Under the pieces are notes generated by a model that worked only from the letters and a program-made list of their open reading frames with translations, made no database searches and was not told the origin of the DNA. This document shows positions 53,488 through 63,384 of a stretch of DNA of 64,000 nucleotides, one piece after another (positions within the stretch are counted from its first letter, which is position 1; each line of letters starts with the position of its first letter). This DNA is from Lachnospiraceae bacterium (GTDB lineage: Bacteria > Bacillota > Clostridia > Lachnospirales > Lachnospiraceae), in NCBI GenBank assembly GCA_017395635.1, contig JAFQOE010000008.1:1-64000 (forward strand), read 5' to 3'. Position numbers and translations under genes: made by a program.

Positions 53488-53884
53488 AATCCTCCTATTC
53501 CAGCAAGGTACGAATATACACCTTATCCTCTCTTGCTTATTGTAATAAATACATGAATTTCCAAGCAAGAGTTTTGTTAGAATAAAGATGGTTCCTGCAC
53601 TTAACCAGATATAGCAAGAATTATTTGCTATCAAAGAATAACAGAACTATTTGCTTTCCTTAAGGATAACATAGGGACGACTATCATTCAACCAAATTTT
53701 AATTATACTTCTTTGTTTCTTTCTCGTTACAACTTTTTACATTTTGACTACCAAATATTACATTCACGCCAAATATATGTTTTATTTTGATATACTAGTA
53801 AGCGTAGAAAAACAGCTACAGAATTGCAGATATGTTCTATATTTGCTATACTAAAACGAATAAATACACAGGAAGGTTTTACCA
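53488..53884. other. Intergenic region with cassette promoter
   Basis: 397 bases with no credible gene. The right part, 53770-53880, should hold the promoter for the rightward signalling cassette; gatatact at 53792-53799 is a possible -10 box. No terminator or RNA gene seen. Confidence 0.35.
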
Positions 53885-54985
53885 ATGATAACAATAGGAA
53901 TATGTGATGATGATCATCAATTTACCGATTATTTATATAGTATTTTACATGATATTATGTTGCCGATTTCCGATTGGAAAGCACGTATTTTTCACAGCGG
54001 TGCGGAAGTATTAGCCGCCATTTCTAATGAGGATTTTGATTGTAATCTTCTATTTACTGATATCTTCATGGAAAACGGAAACGGTTTGGAAATAGCTAAA
54101 TACATATACGAGCACGGAGTCGATACCGATATCATTTTTATTACAAGTTCAAAAGATCATGTATATGAATGTTTTCGCTATCACACCTTTGCTTATCTAT
54201 TGAAACCTTTAACCAATTCTGATATTGGAAAAGAAATTCGTCGATACATGGAAGAACTTTCGATGAATGTAAAATGTTTAAATCTAACTATCCGAGGAGC
54301 TAACTACAAAATACCAATTAACAGTATCCTTTATATCGAAAGTAACCGAAGAAAAATCACAATACATACCAAACGAAGAAACTATGATTACTATGAGAAG
54401 CTCGACGTACTAGAACAACTTTTATCCAAAGATGGTTTTGTTCGTTGCCATCAGAGTTATCTTGTTCAAAAAGATATGATTACTTCATATAACAACAATA
54501 ATAGCATAAGCCTTAATGGGATTTCTTTTGAAATACCGGTTAGCCGCATTCATCAAAAAGAAATCCGTCAGCTATTTGAACCGGAGACACCATCTTTACC
54601 AATTCCGGAAATTGCTACCACTACAGAAGCGAATGGATGTTATATCACCAACAGCTTACAGCAAAACCAAGGGGATACCGGTGCATTTATCTGTACCGAA
54701 GGAGCTTATGTCGGTGCCATTATACGTATCAAGCCGGAACAGCCAATTCGAATCGGACGTGACAATACCGTTGCAGATATGATTGTCAATTTGCCTTTAG
54801 TCAGCCGTCTTCATTGTGAGATTACTTATCACGCGGACAAACATGAATACGAAATTATTGATTATTCCACCAATGGAACCTTCGTCAACGGAGACAAACG
54901 TTTGTTGCCACAGGAAGTATACATATTGAAACCAGGAGCAGAATTGTGCTTCGGTGACAGAGAAACGATTTATAAGCTGGGGTAA
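53885..54985 (+). CDS. LytTR response regulator fused to an FHA domain
   Basis: A 366-residue three-domain regulator. Receiver at 1-120: acidic pocket GICDDD, phospho-Asp in LLFTDIFMENG, IIFITSS and Lys in YLLKPL. LytTR DNA-binding domain at about 133-230: LTIRGANYKIPINSILYIES, FVRCHQSYLVQKDMI, ISFEIPVSR. FHA domain at about 283-363: RIGRDN, LVSRLHCEI, DYSTNGTFVNG, all core phosphothreonine-binding residues. LytTR plus receiver is common; an added FHA is unusual and would let the factor bind a Thr-phosphorylated partner. It starts a three-gene unit with a second FHA protein and a Ser/Thr kinase. Confidence 0.92.
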   Translation: MITIGICDDDHQFTDYLYSILHDIMLPISDWKARIFHSGAEVLAAISNEDFDCNLLFTDIFMENGNGLEIAKYIYEHGVDTDIIFITSSKDHVYECFRYHTFAYLLKPLTNSDIGKEIRRYMEELSMNVKCLNLTIRGANYKIPINSILYIESNRRKITIHTKRRNYDYYEKLDVLEQLLSKDGFVRCHQSYLVQKDMITSYNNNNSISLNGISFEIPVSRIHQKEIRQLFEPETPSLPIPEIATTTEANGCYITNSLQQNQGDTGAFICTEGAYVGAIIRIKPEQPIRIGRDNTVADMIVNLPLVSRLHCEITYHADKHEYEIIDYSTNGTFVNGDKRLLPQEVYILKPGAELCFGDRETIYKLG

Positions 54986-55078
54986 TTCATCTTTGTTACT
55001 TCGTAACTATTTACTATCTTCATAGTTACGTCGCTTCTAATCTATTATTAATACACGAAACAAAAGGAGAATTCTTTC

Positions 55079-55621
55079 ATGAATTTGATAAAATGCGAAA
55101 ATGAACACTACTATAATTCTGATAAATTTGACTCCTGCCCACATTGTGCTAATCTTGTAGCAGATGTCAAAGTAACGGATATTCTAGGCAACAATCAACA
55201 AAAAATCGACACCGTTATTCCCGACAAAGACGTATTAAAAGATTATCAGAAAATCGGTCATCGTCGGGTAACCGGATGGCTTGTCTGTATATTGGGTGAA
55301 ATGCAAGGCGAAAGCTTTACCCTATACGAAGGGGTGAACCATATCGGACGTTCTCCTCATATGGATGTCGCGCTTTTCCGTGAACCAAGCGTTTCCAGAG
55401 AAAATCACGCCATCATCACGTATCACACTGATACGAACACATTTGTACTGGAGGTAAATCCAGACGATGTTGCACCTGTTTTATACAATCACACATTAGT
55501 TAAAAAAAGCTTTTCCCAAACCATATCTTTACGTGATATAATTACCCTCGGAGAATGTCAGCTTTGTTTCATTCCATTTTGTGGTGAACATTTTAGCTGG
55601 GCAGAATGCAAAAATAGATAA
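55079..55621 (+). CDS. Zinc-ribbon/FHA domain protein
   Basis: A 180-residue protein: an N-terminal short metal-site-like segment (CENEHYYNSDKFDSCPHC with Cys and His), a linker with a likely Thr phosphosite region (KVTDILG, DTVIPD), and a C-terminal FHA domain at about 80-170 (HIGRSPHMDVA, SVSRENHAII). It keeps the Arg and Ser-Arg binding residues but lacks the usual NGT loop (here NPDDVAPVLYN). It is 93 bases after the LytTR-FHA gene with aaaggagaa, and just before the kinase; it may be a kinase substrate or adaptor. Confidence 0.85.
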   Translation: MNLIKCENEHYYNSDKFDSCPHCANLVADVKVTDILGNNQQKIDTVIPDKDVLKDYQKIGHRRVTGWLVCILGEMQGESFTLYEGVNHIGRSPHMDVALFREPSVSRENHAIITYHTDTNTFVLEVNPDDVAPVLYNHTLVKKSFSQTISLRDIITLGECQLCFIPFCGEHFSWAECKNR

Positions 55622-55696
55622 CTACAGTCGACTAAAGTTTATTATAAATCTTTACTTTCAACTATTATTAAAGAAACATTATAGGAGTTACCATAC

Positions 55697-57238
55697 ATGA
55701 AACCTGCAAATTCACAGCCTTCCCATACTTTACCATTGGGAACGGAATTACCTCACAACTACATAGTCAACAAAATACTCGGTGAGGGTGGGTTCGGAAT
55801 CACTTACTTTGGTACTCTTAGCCTTACGGGTGAAAAAGTCGCCATCAAGGAATATTTTCCTAATGGTCTTGCCCATAGAGAACATAATACCAACGGCACA
55901 CATCCTATCGTTCCTTTCTTTGGAATGGAGGATGCTTTTGAAAAAGGTCGTCAACACTTCATCAATGAAGCAAGTATTCTGAAAGAATTTCAAAATCTTA
56001 ACAGTATCGTTTCTGTCAAAGATGTAATCGAGACAAATGGTACTGTTTATCTTGTCATGGAATATATTGACGGAATTACTCTGAAACAATATGTCAAAGA
56101 AAATGGTGCGCTGTCTTTCCAGGAGCTTTTGCCTCTAATGAAGCCTGTTCTTCAGTCTCTGATTCAGGTTCACAAGCAGGGTCTGATTCATCGCGATATC
56201 AGTCCTGAAAATCTTATGCTAGGAATCGATAATCAGTTGCATTTGATTGATTTCGGTGCTGCCAGCATTGAAAATGGTCACGAAAATAAGACCATGACCG
56301 TCATTCTCAAATCCGGTTATGCACCGCCTGAACAGTATTTATCGGACGGCAAACAGGGCGCATGGACCGATATTTACGCCCTGTGTGCTACCATGTATAT
56401 GACCTTAACCGGTTTTGCACCACCGGAATCCATACGCCGGATTCAGCAGGAAGAACTTCCTTCCCTGGCAGAGCATGCCGACATTTCTTCCTGGCAAGCC
56501 GCTGCAATCGAGAAAGGAATGAACCTAACCGCTGCCGACCGTTTTCAAAACATGGAGTCCTTATATCAGGCACTGATTATTCCACCTCTTGAAATGGATT
56601 CCAAACGTAGAATGTATCAGGATTCTTCCATTGAAGAGAACAAAACCATTATGAAAAATGATGCCAGAACCAAGAAACAACGCAAACCGTTGCTTTTATT
56701 GGTGCTTTTGGCTTTTCTTTTTGTTGCCATTTTTGAGGGTGCTCGCATATTGGACATCCTTCCCCTTAACTTCGTCAGCAAATCCGGCACTACAACACAT
56801 GATTCTTCTACTGATAATTCTACAGAAAATGTTTCTGACAATATATGTACTATGCTTGATTTATATGGGGAGTCTTATCCTGATGCACATAAGAAAATAA
56901 AGGCATTAGACAACTCCATCACTATACGCTCTGAGTGGGTATATGATGATGCACATGACATCAATACTGTCATCGAACAAAGCATCCAGGCCGGTACGGA
57001 TTTTACAAAGGGCAGTCTTAGCAGTATTTTATTAACTGTCAGCAAAGGAACAGAGCCTACTACTGAGGCCACAACCGAGAATACTACGGAAGAAAATACG
57101 AAAAGTCAGGAAAATAGTACTACAAACAATCAAAATAGTGGTAGTTCTAATAATAGAACTACCACTACGAATCACAAGAAAAATGATGATTTTGAAGTTG
57201 CCACTGAATCGGAAGGAGCGGTGATTACTTTTGATTAA
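55697..57238 (+). CDS. Membrane Ser/Thr protein kinase with PASTA-like domain
   Basis: A 513-residue kinase. Catalytic domain about 20-290: GEGGFGITYFG (Gly loop), VAIKEYFP (Lys), HRDISPENLML (catalytic loop), LIDFGAA (DFG), SGYAPPEQYL. One membrane helix near 331-350, then an outer segment of about 80 residues resembling a single divergent PASTA domain (VIEQSIQAGTDFTKGSLSSI, LTVSKG), and a Thr/Asn-rich tail. It differs from the house-keeping PrkC by having one rather than several PASTA units. Third gene of the FHA cassette; its phosphotransfer to Thr would create ligands for the two FHA domains. Confidence 0.92.
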   Translation: MKPANSQPSHTLPLGTELPHNYIVNKILGEGGFGITYFGTLSLTGEKVAIKEYFPNGLAHREHNTNGTHPIVPFFGMEDAFEKGRQHFINEASILKEFQNLNSIVSVKDVIETNGTVYLVMEYIDGITLKQYVKENGALSFQELLPLMKPVLQSLIQVHKQGLIHRDISPENLMLGIDNQLHLIDFGAASIENGHENKTMTVILKSGYAPPEQYLSDGKQGAWTDIYALCATMYMTLTGFAPPESIRRIQQEELPSLAEHADISSWQAAAIEKGMNLTAADRFQNMESLYQALIIPPLEMDSKRRMYQDSSIEENKTIMKNDARTKKQRKPLLLLVLLAFLFVAIFEGARILDILPLNFVSKSGTTTHDSSTDNSTENVSDNICTMLDLYGESYPDAHKKIKALDNSITIRSEWVYDDAHDINTVIEQSIQAGTDFTKGSLSSILLTVSKGTEPTTEATTENTTEENTKSQENSTTNNQNSGSSNNRTTTTNHKKNDDFEVATESEGAVITFD

Positions 57239-57255: not shown

Positions 57256-59454
57256 CTATTGTGCTTTTTTAATTAATTTCTTATATTTATTTTTCAACTG
57301 CTTTGATGCACCATTTGCTAACATTAACTCTTTCAGTTTTACACCTTTCATCGCATCTTTCCCAACTTTATTCAACTTCTTGCTCCTAATTGTCATATGG
57401 GTAAGCTTCTTATCTTTATAAAAGGCTTTCTTATCAATCGTCTTTAATCCTTTTCCGATTATCACCTTTTTCAGCGATGTGCATTGCGCAAAGGATTGTT
57501 CTCCAATTGTAATCACATTATCCCCAATCGTAACTCTAGTAAGCTTCTTATATCCATAACAAGCTTTCTTGTTAATCTTTGTCACCTTGAACACTCTTCC
57601 CGATATTTCCACTGTGGACGGAATCGTGCATTTCTTAATATTCTTACTTACAGGCTTCATAAAAGTAACGGAAGTAGAACTTGTCACCTTATACTTCATA
57701 CCCTTAATGGTATATGTCTTACCTATTTGAGTTTTTTCCAATATTGAAGTATTTCCGGAATTATTGTTTGTACCATTTTCTGCATTATCCGAATTATCAA
57801 TATCCTTATTTCCTGTATTTTCTTTGTCATCATCTCTAAAAACACCTTCGTCAGCAATAATAGAAAATGTAACTGTTTTCTCTCCTTTATAGTTCCCGAT
57901 TCCAACCAAAGTAAGCATTGCTTGATCTCCAACATTAATATTATTCTGACAACTGTAAAGATAATCCGTTTCGTAGATTAATACTTGTTCCGTATCATTG
58001 TTAAACGCCACAAATGTAGGTATAACTGCTGTTCCCGTATAAACAGTCGGCTGAACAGTTATTGTTATGTTAGCAATATCATAATATACCTTAACATCAA
58101 AACTATCCTGTTTTCCACCATATGTAATGGTAATTGTCTGTTTTCCTGCAAGTGTACTATCAAAACTACTAATGATACAATCCTCTATAGCCACTTCTTT
58201 ATTCTCATACCCAGTTTCTGTAGACAAAGACATAACCGATGCCTTCACCACCAAACCGCTCAAATCTAATTTACCATTTGTACTATACATATATTCTCTT
58301 ATATCCGGCAATTCCGTAACAATTACCGATTGCACACTACTTTCACAGGAAATCCCTGCCTTATCCGCATATATGGTAACATTTCCCACATTAATGCAAT
58401 ATATAACCATATTAGGCGCCTTTTGTGTGGTAGGAAATGCTTTGTTTCCAATCGCTGTATTCTCATTCTCAAATACAACTTGATTCAGACCGGTACAACC
58501 AGCAAATGCTTCGTCACCGATACTAGTACATGCCACGGGGATTTCTATGTTTTTCAAACTTGTACACGATTGAAACGCTGTGCAACCAATAGCACTACAA
58601 TTTTTAGGGAGTATTGCTTCTTGTGCATTGGTTGAATTAATCTGGCTCAAGCTGTTACAATATGCAAACGCATTGTTAGAAATAGACATACAACTCTCTG
58701 GTAACGTTATAGAGCGCAGACTATCACAAGACCAAAATGCATTAGCCGGAATACCAGTACATCCTTCCGGTAAAGAAATTGTTGTTAATAGCTCACAACC
58801 TCCAAACACCTGCGCACCAAGGACCAATGTTCTGTCACTATGTTGTGTTTTTTCAAAAATGACACTTTGCAACTCTTCACACCTATCAAACGCATTACTG
58901 CTAATAGAAGAACATGTTGCGGGAATTGACACACTAGACAAAGAATTACAGTTATAAAATGCAGCTTTTCCAATAGATGTACAATCATCCGGCAAGGAAA
59001 GCCTCAACAAAGATTTACAATCATAACACAACCCTCCCGGAATCACCGTAACACAATCTGGTATATCTAACTCTATAAGATTTGAACAATCCTTAAATAT
59101 ATTATTTCCCAAAGTTAAGGACTTCGTGTCTGGAGCAAAAGTTATTGTTCGTATACTACTTGTGTCAAATGCGCTCTCCCCAATTGCCACAACTGTTTTC
59201 GGCAATATAATACTTGTCAATGTAGTACTTGCAAATGCCCAATCCTTGATTGTAATCTCTGTTGCTTCCGAAAAGTATTCATTCAAATCTAAGCTTGATA
59301 CAGTTCCCTTGTAATCAGTAATAACAATACTATCCGTTCCCGTATATACGATTCCATCAACCTCTGCTGCTTGACTGATGGTGGAATAGCCCATTACAGC
59401 AAACAGACCCAATAATAACACGCACAAATTCTTGCATATACTGTATCCTTTCAC
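57256..59454 (-). CDS. BspA-like LRR_5 surface protein
   Basis: A 732-residue secreted protein: signal peptide (about 1-29, ending SQAAE), a long leucine-rich LRR_5 array at about 70-345 (units such as CDSLRSITLPESCMSISNNA), a domain of the MBG/Ig-like type at about 380-520 (DVKVYYDIANITITVQP), an Asp/Asn-rich linker, and a second shorter LRR block near the C-terminus (TRVTIGDNVITIGEQSFAQC). No sortase motif; ends basic (KKLIKKAQ). Starts at GTG 59454 after ggaggag. Such proteins mediate surface contacts. It converges on the kinase gene. Confidence 0.85.
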   Translation of the reverse strand: MKGYSICKNLCVLLLGLFAVMGYSTISQAAEVDGIVYTGTDSIVITDYKGTVSSLDLNEYFSEATEITIKDWAFASTTLTSIILPKTVVAIGESAFDTSSIRTITFAPDTKSLTLGNNIFKDCSNLIELDIPDCVTVIPGGLCYDCKSLLRLSLPDDCTSIGKAAFYNCNSLSSVSIPATCSSISSNAFDRCEELQSVIFEKTQHSDRTLVLGAQVFGGCELLTTISLPEGCTGIPANAFWSCDSLRSITLPESCMSISNNAFAYCNSLSQINSTNAQEAILPKNCSAIGCTAFQSCTSLKNIEIPVACTSIGDEAFAGCTGLNQVVFENENTAIGNKAFPTTQKAPNMVIYCINVGNVTIYADKAGISCESSVQSVIVTELPDIREYMYSTNGKLDLSGLVVKASVMSLSTETGYENKEVAIEDCIISSFDSTLAGKQTITITYGGKQDSFDVKVYYDIANITITVQPTVYTGTAVIPTFVAFNNDTEQVLIYETDYLYSCQNNINVGDQAMLTLVGIGNYKGEKTVTFSIIADEGVFRDDDKENTGNKDIDNSDNAENGTNNNSGNTSILEKTQIGKTYTIKGMKYKVTSSTSVTFMKPVSKNIKKCTIPSTVEISGRVFKVTKINKKACYGYKKLTRVTIGDNVITIGEQSFAQCTSLKKVIIGKGLKTIDKKAFYKDKKLTHMTIRSKKLNKVGKDAMKGVKLKELMLANGASKQLKNKYKKLIKKAQ

Positions 59455-59756
59455 AACGCCTCTCCTCCGTAACTGAAATACTTATTTTTTCGCTTATTAT
59501 AACTATTCTATCTTCACATTTTCTGCCCCAAAAAGGAGTCTTATGTTTAATATATAACTTCTTTATCTACATCATAAAAGCCTTGAATATGATATAAAAT
59601 TATATCATATTCAAGGCTGGATATCTATATCATATCTTTTTCAGCTTTTTCTTCATTTTACCTTTCAAAAAAATGTGAAATCATAAAAAGATTTTGTCTT
59701 TGAAAAATTCAACACTTTCTTGAACTTCTTGTCATATTGTTTTTACTTACCTTTTG
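59455..59756. other. Intergenic region with long perfect hairpin
   Basis: 302 bases. Contains the leftward promoter of the LRR gene (right after 59470) and the inverted repeat at 59579-59618. No gene seen. Confidence 0.5.
59579..59618 (-). terminator. Perfect 40-base inverted repeat, likely terminator
   Basis: Two 19-base arms (starting AGCCTTGAATATGATATAA) around a two-base centre, with TTTT next on the minus strand. Probably terminates the leftward gene that ends at 59757; unusually long and perfect for that role. Confidence 0.6.
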
Positions 59757-60437
59757 TTATTCCTCTCGCCATCTTCGAATCACATTTCCGTACTCATCCT
59801 TCTCCTCTAATATCTTTGTTCCAGAAGAATCATACATAAAGAAAGAAATGACTTTTATGATACCTACCCCCAATGCTACGATCACCACTAGTGTCATTAA
59901 CATAACCCCAAGTGCGAACCACAGCCCAGAACCGAGCAAAACAAGTACTGTTTTTCTATATTCTCTGTCCATCACAAAAACAATAAATGAAAGCATCATC
60001 GCTATCCCTAAAAGAATTATTGATACGAGCTCTCCAAGTGATCCTACTAAACTTATTCTCAAACCACCTAAAGCATCTATATTAAGCAGCAACAAAACAA
60101 CAGAAGTTACAGCAACCAGACCACAACATACCGCCATTATAATTCTCTTTGTTCCCTCTTTTGCTAAAATATATGAAACAAAAAGGGAAATAACAGCAAC
60201 CACTAATACAATCAAACCAACCTTAAATAACCCTTGTTGATAAAAGTATTCCCATATATAATCTAAAAGTCCCCTTTCCTTCAAATACTGTCCTTCCGTA
60301 TTTGATGTATCCAATCGAAAAAACATAATGACACTCCATATCGCATTAAGCAAATATAGAACGTCGGCAGCAATTGCCAATCCCAAAGCGCACTTCATAT
60401 AATCTAGCTTTTTCATAAACTCCTTTACACGCTCCAT
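59757..60437 (-). CDS. Multi-pass membrane protein, unknown
   Basis: A 226-residue protein with about five or six hydrophobic segments (about 12-35, 70-90, 95-115, 125-145, 155-175, 178-200) and a short cytosolic C-terminal tail (DSSGTKILEEKDEYGNVIRR). The tail looks like an RHS-like or linker motif but is short. It follows the LRR_5 gene at 60473 by 35 bases, so is probably co-transcribed. I do not recognise the family. Confidence 0.65.
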   Translation of the reverse strand: MERVKEFMKKLDYMKCALGLAIAADVLYLLNAIWSVIMFFRLDTSNTEGQYLKERGLLDYIWEYFYQQGLFKVGLIVLVVAVISLFVSYILAKEGTKRIIMAVCCGLVAVTSVVLLLLNIDALGGLRISLVGSLGELVSIILLGIAMMLSFIVFVMDREYRKTVLVLLGSGLWFALGVMLMTLVVIVALGVGIIKVISFFMYDSSGTKILEEKDEYGNVIRRWREE

Positions 60438-60472
60438 CCTCTTTCTCCCTTCTGCATAAACCGATAATATTG

Positions 60473-62314
60473 TTACTTTTTCACTGTTACAGTTTTATTA
60501 CCTTTATTCTTGAGATAAGTCTTATACTTCTTAACCTTACTCTTTGGCACTTTAATTACAAGTTTTTCATTAGTTCCCTTCAATGCATTCTTACCAATGG
60601 ACTTCTTAGTGAGCTTTGTTGATTTTAATGTAATTTTAGTAAGTTTCTTCGCTCCATAAAAAGCATTTGCACCGATCTTGTCAAGCTTGGTAGACTTAAT
60701 TTCTACTGTTTTTAAGTTTGTACACTTTTTAAATGCACTCTTTCCAATGGAAGTTACATTTTTTCCTATTACAATCTTTGTAACTTTTTTATTATTTGCA
60801 AATGCATTATCCGAAATACTAGTAACCTTGTAACTGACCCCCTCAATCATAACCTGATCTGGAATCTTAATTGTTTTTTCCTTTATATTAGTTGGTTTCT
60901 TATATGCAACAGTAGGGTTCTTTACATTCGAAGATGTTACAACTACTTTGCATTTATTAACTACATCTGTAAGCATAGTGTTCTTATTTTCAGGTGTTGC
61001 TGTTTTGTTTTCTTCACTTTTATCATTTGTTACATCAGATGAGTTCTTATCCGTATTATCATTCACGTCAACACCTGGCACAGTATTCGTATTATCACTT
61101 TCATCGGTATCTGGTGTTGTATTCGTATCACCACCTAGTGCAGGTATTTCTTCCGTTTCCTTCACCCCACACATAGAACAATTTCGTTCCTTTAAGCCTT
61201 TCTCACTGCTAGTAGCTTCCTTGGTCACTTTCCATTCTCCATATGTATGTTCATATGTTGCCGAAATGTCTTCAAAGTCACACGCACCAATACATCCTAT
61301 CGTTGTACAATGACGAGATTGAACTCCCTCTTCCGAACAAGTTGGTAAAACATCTATAGTCCATTCTTCCGAATATGTATGTACATGAATATCATCTATT
61401 GTGAATCTGTATCGTTCCGGTACTGCATCGAGCTCACACCAATCAGTAGCCAAATTAACTATTGATGTATTTCCTGCAAAATCTATTACTTCGACATAAT
61501 CAATTCCATATATTACTCCTCGTTGCCATTCTTCCAACGACTTACCCACAACAATAACCCCTAACGGATTAAGGGTAACTCCACCTGACAATCCTATTCC
61601 ACTACTAAAATCCCACGCTGATGAAAATCCTTCACCAAACGACGCGTACGGACCATACCATATTTCTATGCTTTGGATTCCACTTTCATTTTCTTCAACC
61701 GGAATTTGAAATTGTATTTCCTGATATTTTTCCCCTGTAGTATAAGACAACTCTTCCTTACAAATCGCAATATTATCTTTTTCGATAACTGGGGCTGTTG
61801 TATCTTTTTTCTGTCCACTTACATTAAAACTTAAACCACTAAAATCTATTCCTTTGTATCCGTTTGTAATCGTATATTGATTATCATCTGTTAATACAAA
61901 AAAACGATGTATTTGATATACTCCATCTCCTGCACCCCATTCATCAACATAATAACGAAATATATAATATCCATTTTCATCTATCTTAAAGTATCCTCCA
62001 AAACTACTATCATAATAAGTGTTTACAATATTTCCATTTGGTGCTCTTAGTGACATTTCCATTCGCACATCTTCATAACCATCTAGAGGCTTAATCTTCC
62101 ATTCAACAAAATCATTTATCTCTCCGCTATACGAAACGCTACAATTTGCAACATCAATAATCGGCTCTGCAGCCTCAAATCCATAGTCTTCATCATCTTC
62201 TAGTAAATCATGTGCCATCACATATGGATATTGTCCTTGATAACAAAGGGACAAACTTACTATCAACACAACTACCAATCCATATAATATATTTCTTAAA
62301 TTCTTGTGTTCCAT
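60473..62314 (-). CDS. BspA-like LRR_5 surface protein with Ig-like region
   Basis: A 613-residue exported protein: N-terminal signal segment (about 8-30), a large beta-rich region (about 40-300: GEINDFVEWKIKPLDGYEDV, ENESGIQSIEIWYGPYASF), a Cys-containing region (SRHCTTIGCIGACDFE, ERNCSMCG; about 330-400), an acidic Asp/Asn/Thr linker, and a C-terminal LRR_5 block (YKVTSISDNAFANNKKVTKI, IGKSAFKKCTNLKTVEIKST). ATG 62314 is preferred by ggagg spacing. Likely a cell-surface adhesin or binding protein, like the neighbour at 57256, with which it shares the C-terminal LRR style. Confidence 0.8.
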   Translation of the reverse strand: MEHKNLRNILYGLVVVLIVSLSLCYQGQYPYVMAHDLLEDDEDYGFEAAEPIIDVANCSVSYSGEINDFVEWKIKPLDGYEDVRMEMSLRAPNGNIVNTYYDSSFGGYFKIDENGYYIFRYYVDEWGAGDGVYQIHRFFVLTDDNQYTITNGYKGIDFSGLSFNVSGQKKDTTAPVIEKDNIAICKEELSYTTGEKYQEIQFQIPVEENESGIQSIEIWYGPYASFGEGFSSAWDFSSGIGLSGGVTLNPLGVIVVGKSLEEWQRGVIYGIDYVEVIDFAGNTSIVNLATDWCELDAVPERYRFTIDDIHVHTYSEEWTIDVLPTCSEEGVQSRHCTTIGCIGACDFEDISATYEHTYGEWKVTKEATSSEKGLKERNCSMCGVKETEEIPALGGDTNTTPDTDESDNTNTVPGVDVNDNTDKNSSDVTNDKSEENKTATPENKNTMLTDVVNKCKVVVTSSNVKNPTVAYKKPTNIKEKTIKIPDQVMIEGVSYKVTSISDNAFANNKKVTKIVIGKNVTSIGKSAFKKCTNLKTVEIKSTKLDKIGANAFYGAKKLTKITLKSTKLTKKSIGKNALKGTNEKLVIKVPKSKVKKYKTYLKNKGNKTVTVKK

Positions 62315-62395
62315 CCTTTTCATCCTCCGTATTCTCTTATATAAATATGTCTTTCGCTAACTCTACTTCAAATTATACACATCATTAGTATCTTA

Positions 62396-63268
62396 TCAGT
62401 TTATGCGAAAATAAATATATTGTGGTTTACATGAATTGGAATCCCATATTCTCATAATGAAATAAGAGTATTTTCCTAACTTGTTCAATTTTAACGATTT
62501 ATATTTTCCATCTGTGGTTGTACAACTAGAAATCATATCATCAATTATATATGTTTCACTATACGCTAAATCACCCAAGCCAAATCCATTGTATATTCCT
62601 TTTTTATTGTATCTGCACAACTTATAACTTAACGTTGAATCTTTTGTATTGGATTTACTGCTATCTAAAGTTACTTTCGTTCTTTTTGGTAAAATATATA
62701 CCTTGTTCCCGTTAATCTTCTTTGTTTTAATCTTCTTGTTGCCAGGAGCTTCAAATGTAATTCCTGATTGTAGAACCTTTCTAGAATCCTTTTTATATTT
62801 ATTGGCATTCCGAATATACATAAACGTGCAAACCTTGTTTTGTGAATTCAAATAAAATCGAAGAGTATATTTATTGGAACCCTTTTTATAACTATATTCC
62901 AAATATGTTTTCCATAAAGAAATATCATACTCGCAGCACATGGTATCATTCTGTATACTTTTATATATTTTATTCGATGTTTTTACTTTGTTTTTCTTTG
63001 TTTTTCCATATTTTTTCAAAACACGAGACGATTTATCTCCTATTTTTATTTTTCGTTTTGTAACTATATCACTACTATAAAAATATCTAAGTTCCGTTTT
63101 ACCCGTATACCATGGTTCTCCGATAAAATCATATTGCTTTCCTTCTTTATCTGTATAAACAAAATCACTTTTGTTTATTGTCGTTGCTGCCTCTACATCA
63201 TTATGGTAAAAAATACACATTACCATCACCACTGCTACTAGCATAATTTTTAATATTCTTTTCATCAT
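62396..63268 (-). CDS. Secreted basic protein, unknown function
   Basis: A 290-residue exported protein: signal peptide (about 1-27, ending DVEAA), and a Lys/Tyr-rich mature part (KKGSNKYTLRFYLNSQNKVC, KKIKTKKINGNKVYILPKR). High lysine and tyrosine resemble other secreted proteins of this genus that bind polysaccharide or wall polymers. I do not recognise a domain. ATG 63268 follows aggagg; longer frames upstream lack a site. Stands next to the LRR genes. Confidence 0.75.
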   Translation of the reverse strand: MMKRILKIMLVAVVMVMCIFYHNDVEAATTINKSDFVYTDKEGKQYDFIGEPWYTGKTELRYFYSSDIVTKRKIKIGDKSSRVLKKYGKTKKNKVKTSNKIYKSIQNDTMCCEYDISLWKTYLEYSYKKGSNKYTLRFYLNSQNKVCTFMYIRNANKYKKDSRKVLQSGITFEAPGNKKIKTKKINGNKVYILPKRTKVTLDSSKSNTKDSTLSYKLCRYNKKGIYNGFGLGDLAYSETYIIDDMISSCTTTDGKYKSLKLNKLGKYSYFIMRIWDSNSCKPQYIYFRIN

Positions 63269-63384
63269 ATAAATCCTCCTGTTCTGTTGTAAATATTTCA
63301 ATACAACTTCATTTTAACAGAAAAAAAATCAAAAAATCACGCATGTAACTTTTAACAGCATTTATGTAACTATTGGTAAAAAAT

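Follow-up and report, generated by a model that had tools for sequence, protein, structure and literature searches.

PpkA, PppA and Fha1 constitute a threonine phosphorylation pathway of the type VI secretion system (T6SS). PMC4601284 describes EmbR as a transcription factor that carries an FHA domain at its C-terminus and is controlled by the Ser/Thr kinase PknH, and PMC8546545 places a phosphorylatable ETTS site N-terminal to the FHA domain of GarA. For LytTR regulators, PMC11347149 and PMC4227749 present the binding sites as direct repeats two turns apart upstream of promoters. Here we describe a three-gene cassette in a 64,000-nucleotide stretch of a Lachnospiraceae bacterium (contig JAFQOE010000008.1, positions 1 to 64,000, hereafter the window), which encodes a REC-LytTR-FHA regulator, a small FHA protein with a putative zinc knuckle (ZN-FHA) and a membrane Ser/Thr kinase. 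Judged by sequence comparison, the cassette is a genuine, conserved and coherent unit, and there is about an even chance that it works as a threonine-phosphorylation signalling unit with the LytTR transcription factor as its output. Loci and genomes used for comparison are denoted by L and G numbers, respectively.

The three-gene cassette and its conservation

The cassette consists of three consecutive open reading frames (ORFs) on the forward strand at 53885-54985 (366 amino acids, aa), 55079-55621 (180 aa) and 55697-57238 (513 aa), and their Pfam matches agree with the domains that a preliminary description of this DNA had assigned to three rightward genes. The regulator (53885..54985) matched Response_reg (1.4e-12), LytTR (3e-22) and FHA (5.1e-16), each above the Pfam cut-off, which bears out the proposed fusion of a receiver and a LytTR domain to a complete FHA domain. 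On residue alignment, the REC domain (residues 1-120) has a complete pocket of D8-D10, D59, T87 and K107, the LytTR domain following it (residues 141-231) contains the FxRCHxS motif as FVRCHQSY, and the FHA domain (residues 288-357) retains R292, S307, H310 and N330. Conserved residues for phosphothreonine binding, fused to a predicted DNA-binding domain, are what would be expected of an EmbR-type factor.

The ZN-FHA protein (55079..55621) matched Pfam FHA at 4.5e-5, with 24.2 bits against a cut-off of 20.7. As the preliminary description had suggested, it combines a Cys/His knuckle (C6, H10, C20 and C23), which recurs in relatives and presumably binds zinc, with an FHA domain of diverged loop: GR and SRxxH are retained, but NG(T) is missing, so the domain lacks the complete loop of GarA and OdhI. 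Its linker carries a GarA-like I43-D44-T45, and an [IV][DE]T sequence is present in 22 of 36 ZN-FHA linkers.

The kinase (55697..57238) contains a catalytic domain (Pkinase, 3.7e-35) with HRDISPEN and DFG, one hydrophobic stretch predicted to cross the membrane, and a single PASTA domain at residues 385-450 (4.5e-6, 27 bits against a cut-off of 23.2). Among structures in the PDB, the catalytic domain was closest to PpkA (7.7e-38), followed at a distance by StkP (1e-22), whereas the PrkC-type kinase of the same genome, used as a control, best matched StkP; by this measure the cassette kinase falls outside the PknB clade. Its score against NCBIfam PknB_PASTA_kin was 158 bits with a cut-off of 450, although the PrkC-type control was also below (219). 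The complete kinase with one helix and one PASTA domain was thus as described for the window, but PASTA is not fixed among relatives: the kinases of L032, L034 and L037 show an alignment gap at this position and no phmmer match to the window PASTA segment, and the regulator of L032 is 86% identical to that of the window, yet its kinase has no detectable PASTA domain. We therefore rejected PASTA as a conserved sensor. Since PASTA is dispensable and the kinase resembles PpkA rather than PrkC or StkP, wall sensing by analogy with the latter, as suggested earlier, is weakened. In the extracellular part of the kinase (56849-57238 in the window, and in relatives), PASTA comes and goes and an acidic C-terminal tail resembling DDxYxxFxLD is common, although only a weak form of it is seen in the window kinase.

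Matches to a LytTR-FHA profile were found in 18 of the 26 genomes of the genus, and because they recur in this way, the fusion is neither a chance event nor a misassembly. In wider samples, the profile matched at least 11 of 397 genomes of the family, at least 2 of 391 of the class (the window's own genome and G786) and at least 1 of 398 of the phylum (the own genome), all of these being lower bounds with at most seven candidates scored per genome among the matches listed. Both parts lie in one open frame in 4 of the 11 family genomes (the own genome, G334, G196 and G378), while the match in G089 spans a stop between two genes. Two named relatives are metagenome-assembled genomes of Lachnospiraceae, one of them from goat rectum.

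Gene maps of 61 sources yielded 48 fused LytTR-FHA regulators. Nearby genes include a small ZN/FHA gene at 43 of these loci, a kinase gene at 41 and an LRR_5 gene at 30, so the three genes are indeed conserved together in related genomes, the point on which the preliminary description had staked its proposal. Linkage persists at loci whose regulator has no REC domain, with the ZN/FHA partner in 16/19 and the kinase in 15/19. Where LytTR and FHA reside in separate genes (L112, L113, L120, L124 and L128), kinase genes are found at four of the five loci, some of which also carry PP2C and VWA-FHA genes.

A second cassette type adjoins EssC of the type VIIb secretion system (T7SSb) in L043 and L047, where EssC scores above its NCBIfam cut-off and has an FHA domain of its own. 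In L029 (3916-5559, contig C3 of the own genome) and L044 (5852-7543), the place of the long EssC is occupied by a protein of about 550 aa resembling the N-terminal FHA part of EssC, without FtsK/SpoIIIE and near a membrane kinase; the L044 gene was assigned to this part by phmmer alone. L112, L113, L124 and L129 hold large clusters in which PP2C, VWA-FHA and kinase genes are joined by several ZN-FHA or FHA genes, and which may represent a wider threonine-phosphorylation system in Lachnospiraceae.

Inputs of the regulator

The regulators occur in three forms, namely REC-LytTR-FHA (29), REC-less LytTR-FHA (19) and REC-LytTR with a separate small FHA gene (5). The FHA residues GR, SRxH and NG are retained in 43 of the 48 fused proteins, with L105, L106, L111, L122 and L123 as exceptions. 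REC, on the other hand, is missing in 19/48, and in about 10 of the remaining 29 the pocket is degenerate in the alignment as read by eye; altogether, about 29 of the 48 have no REC or a degenerate one. The acceptor Asp is replaced by Glu in L029, L042 and L118. From this difference, threonine phosphorylation would be the common input and REC an optional one. For the same reason, the idea that two phosphorylation codes merge on one promoter is possible for the window copy with its complete pocket, but does not describe the core of the family. The regulators of L105, L106 and L122, in which REC pocket and FHA residues are both degenerate, stand beside a second REC-LytTR gene and are perhaps dead partners.

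From what the DNA itself shows, namely the domain architecture, the joint conservation of the genes, the existence of three regulator forms and the repeats with their -10 spacing, we infer a mechanism that covers the signal, phosphorylation, FHA ligands, DNA binding and activation. The extracellular part of the kinase, which varies among relatives, would sense an outside signal, upon which the PpkA-like enzyme would autophosphorylate and also phosphorylate ZN-FHA at its [IV][DE]T site. The FHA domain of the regulator would then bind a phosphothreonine, which could belong to the kinase, to ZN-FHA or, as Thr255, to a second regulator molecule nearby. Such binding may alter the pairing of LytTR domains on TTACA direct repeats with a period of 21 bp, by which the regulator would activate its own operon and, in its own genome, the neighbouring genes for LRR_5 surface proteins. 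REC would provide a second input, which is preserved in the window copy; in many relatives it has decayed or is gone.

Thr255 belongs to a linker motif, T255-N-S-L-Q-Q-N (54647..54667, forward strand), which lies just N-terminal to the FHA domain in the alignment and is a candidate phosphothreonine or docking peptide. A Thr with Leu, Ile or Val at +3 suits FHA binding, and owing to the short distance between linker and FHA domain, binding in trans would be likelier than a fold back in cis. An analogy is provided by the animal FHA protein TIFA, in which, according to PMC7083832, Thr9 ahead of the FHA domain is recognised in trans by another dimer through its FHA domain; it serves as a model for Thr255 from an unrelated pathway. 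Docking of the motif onto REC may equally account for it. The latter is central to an alternative in which REC and FHA are both needed, with TxSLxxN docking onto REC so that both phosphorylations are read together. Of 53 tree rows, 21 have TxS[LIV]xxN ahead of FHA, and each of these also has a REC pocket or a separate response regulator, with the provisos that the contig ends within the response regulator of L120 and that the acceptor of L042 is Glu. The motif is missing from 19/19 REC-less and 10/10 degenerate-REC rows as well as from three others (L029 and L118 with Asp to Glu, and L123 with REC intact), the split FHA proteins begin with it or have it close to their N-terminus, and its S, L and N are conserved along with T. 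However, the Fisher value of 6e-12 for the association of motif and REC is from raw counts that ignore kinship, and independent contrasts on supported branches gave three of four pairs in the same direction and one tie, with a median p of 0.25. With this value, T255 was rejected as a proven phosphosite, and we consider a strict requirement for both inputs rather unlikely.

A broader proposal is that a response regulator family was turned stepwise into a factor driven by a threonine kinase. A separate FHA partner would have been followed by fusion and then by decay or loss of REC, with kinase and ZN-FHA kept, an order that is conjectural as the tree is unrooted. In REC-bearing members, phosphothreonine at T255 and Asp phosphorylation would together determine how the regulator assembles on tandem LytTR sites. 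This proposal is tentative, with a modest chance of being right.

The regulator could instead be an ordinary two-component regulator, in which a distant histidine kinase phosphorylates REC and thereby drives DNA binding, while FHA serves only as a tether to the membrane kinase or ZN-FHA. The complete REC pocket of the window copy would fit, and so would the finding that the clearest operators, correctly oriented, are those of REC-bearing regulators. Elsewhere in the own genome there are 22 matches to HATPase_c_5 and 3 to His_kinase, so that the intact REC may have a distant donor. However, among the matches listed for the 26 genus genomes, several of whose contigs are short in this neighbourhood check, neither HATPase_c_5 (AgrC-type) nor His_kinase (LytS-type) was found within 10 kb of a LytTR-FHA gene, the nearest being at about 13 kb (His_kinase, G014) and 17 kb (HATPase_c_5, G002); the cognate histidine kinase expected beside a LytTR response regulator was thus not seen among these matches. 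Of 135 unassigned neighbour proteins, 114 were scanned by domain, and among the families listed, 25 of 117 in one of the listings, HATPase_c appeared in two (L098 and L110), both beside REC-less regulators. Considering also the 19 fused regulators without REC and the three with Glu in place of the acceptor Asp, this explanation is unlikely.

Predicted operator and the neighbouring LRR_5 genes

A predicted LytTR operator, TTACAT-N15-TTACAT, lies on the forward strand at 53737..53763, 122 bp before the regulator gene, with a third repeat, TTACAA, 10 bp upstream (53727-53732) and a -10 box, TATACT, at 53791..53796, 27 bp past the second repeat. A second exact copy is found on the reverse strand at 63343..63369, 42 bp upstream of a 301-aa ORF, and is followed 26 bp past its second repeat by a -10-like TAAAAT (63311..63316). 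A pair of direct repeats separated by roughly two turns of the helix and placed before a promoter is, as a prediction, the arrangement expected for LytTR regulators, and the mapping suggested in the preliminary description accordingly places a predicted repeat before both the cassette and the adjacent LRR_5 group. Right before the regulator gene, at 53842-53852, there is also a second promoter-like element, TTTGCTATACT, common to L032, L033 and L034.

TTACA pairs exactly 21 bp apart were present in 7 of 48 upstream regions against 0.1 expected. A search of 871 kb gave 21 occurrences of TTACAW-N15-TTACAW, the arrangement with period 21, whereas 28 other spacings averaged 2.9. A gene on the same strand starts within 300 bp of 18 of these 21 sites, while other spacings give 0-3 such matches. 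With two regions added, a TATAAT-like box follows 25-28 bp downstream at 14 of 23 sites, compared with 113 of 1974 single TTACAW sequences (binomial 2e-12, kinship ignored). Sites on the right strand precede REC-LytTR-FHA genes in the window and L032-L036, stand-alone LytTR genes (L029, L043 and L046), a kinase gene (L032), a PP2C gene (L113), a REC-LytTR gene (L128), the 301-aa ORF of the window and an unassigned gene in L121.

The genes behind the second copy, at 57256..63301 on the reverse strand, are candidates for control by the regulator. The group is headed by the 301-aa ORF (62396-63301), followed by a 616-aa LRR_5 protein by Pfam (60473-62323), a 226-aa membrane protein (59757-60437) and a 732-aa LRR_5 protein (57256-59454), whose gene is preceded by a 303-bp gap and may therefore have its own promoter. 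In G010 and G016, a comparable site stands before gene runs leading to LRR_5 genes. Of the 19 exact repeats in the own genome, 3 are at the two cassettes; 10 of the other 16 were fetched, and none lies within an FHA, kinase or LRR_5 stretch by position, while another of the 16, C47:4135, falls among the LRR_5 stretches of its contig.

Several observations weigh against the view that the cassette is a threonine-phosphorylation unit acting through this operator. Besides the possible distant donor for REC, no kinase was found nearby at 7 of the 48 loci, and the rules for the acidic tail (26 of 34 cassette kinases against 1 of 16 others, the window copy failing the strict rule) and for a juxtamembrane T motif (21 of 31 against 9.3 in shuffles) were both defined after looking. 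The operator sites of the window, L032 and L033 stem from close relatives. In the REC-less L099, L101 and L103, as in L038, the repeat faces other small or unassigned genes, away from LRR_5 or LytTR-FHA, and in the REC-less L100 and L109 it faces no gene in the locus; with this wrong orientation, one operator shared by the REC-less regulators is doubtful and was not borne out. The exact repeat shows no excess in the own genome (19 against 17 for a reversed control), which led us to reject a genome-wide regulon, so any regulon would be small and local. LRR_5 is common in the own genome, with 55 matched stretches, which tempers its proximity to the cassette. The first gene behind the G010 site resembles the 301-aa ORF in its first 29 residues only, the first gene behind the G016 site is unrelated to it, and the region fetched from G018 holds no operator site; an orthologous LRR operator was thus not borne out by the head genes in G010 and G016. 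A main role of the kinase and FHA pair in the post-translational control of a surface or secretion machine, like that of PpkA and Fha1 in T6SS, with LytTR confined to autoregulation, seems very unlikely in spite of the PpkA-like kinase, the paralogous cassettes beside EssC and the LRR_5 genes near 30 of 48 loci, as no secretion gene was found among nine window proteins scanned around the cassette and the repeat also precedes the window LRR_5 gene group.

Comparison with known systems

The body of the regulator and the paired direct repeats upstream of promoters resemble AgrA/ComE-type LytTR regulators. Unlike these, the cassette regulator has an additional C-terminal FHA domain, REC is missing in many relatives, and no AgrC-type histidine kinase is nearby among the matches listed. 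ZN-FHA is comparable to GarA/OdhI under PknG in being a small FHA protein, with [IV][DE]T before the FHA domain; GarA binds metabolic enzymes, whereas ZN-FHA sits beside a transcription factor, and to our knowledge GarA has no zinc knuckle. GarA and OdhI were rejected as sequence relatives of the FHA domain, with no match in a PDB profile search at 1e-4. The PpkA-PppA-Fha1 pathway shares the closest solved kinase domain and has FHA readers alongside, but its output is T6SS assembly, whereas the proposed output of the cassette is transcription. The window cassette also lacks PP2C, which is present in the clusters of L046, L112 and L113.

If the proposed mechanism is true, the cassette would show how the His-Asp and Ser/Thr phosphorylation languages can be united in a single transcription factor and how either may take the place of the other. 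Intact, decayed, REC-less and split natural versions are available for comparison, the 27-bp operator with its fixed -10 spacing could be used as a reporter, and the cassette would be a candidate control circuit for the BspA-type LRR surface proteins of gut Lachnospiraceae.

A literature search of limited scope found no description of a LytTR fusion with an FHA (forkhead-associated) domain, nor of the series of REC loss or the operator. To this extent the earlier claim that no such system had been described holds for the LytTR fusion; it does not hold for the principle, since EmbR-PknH of M. tuberculosis is already an FHA transcription factor under a Ser/Thr kinase. As a SARP, EmbR has an OmpR-type domain for DNA binding together with a BTA domain, and it lacks LytTR and REC, both of which the cassette regulator has instead, and we know of no ZN-FHA partner of EmbR. 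Taken together, the cassette is better regarded as a new variant of the principle known from EmbR-PknH than as a new principle.

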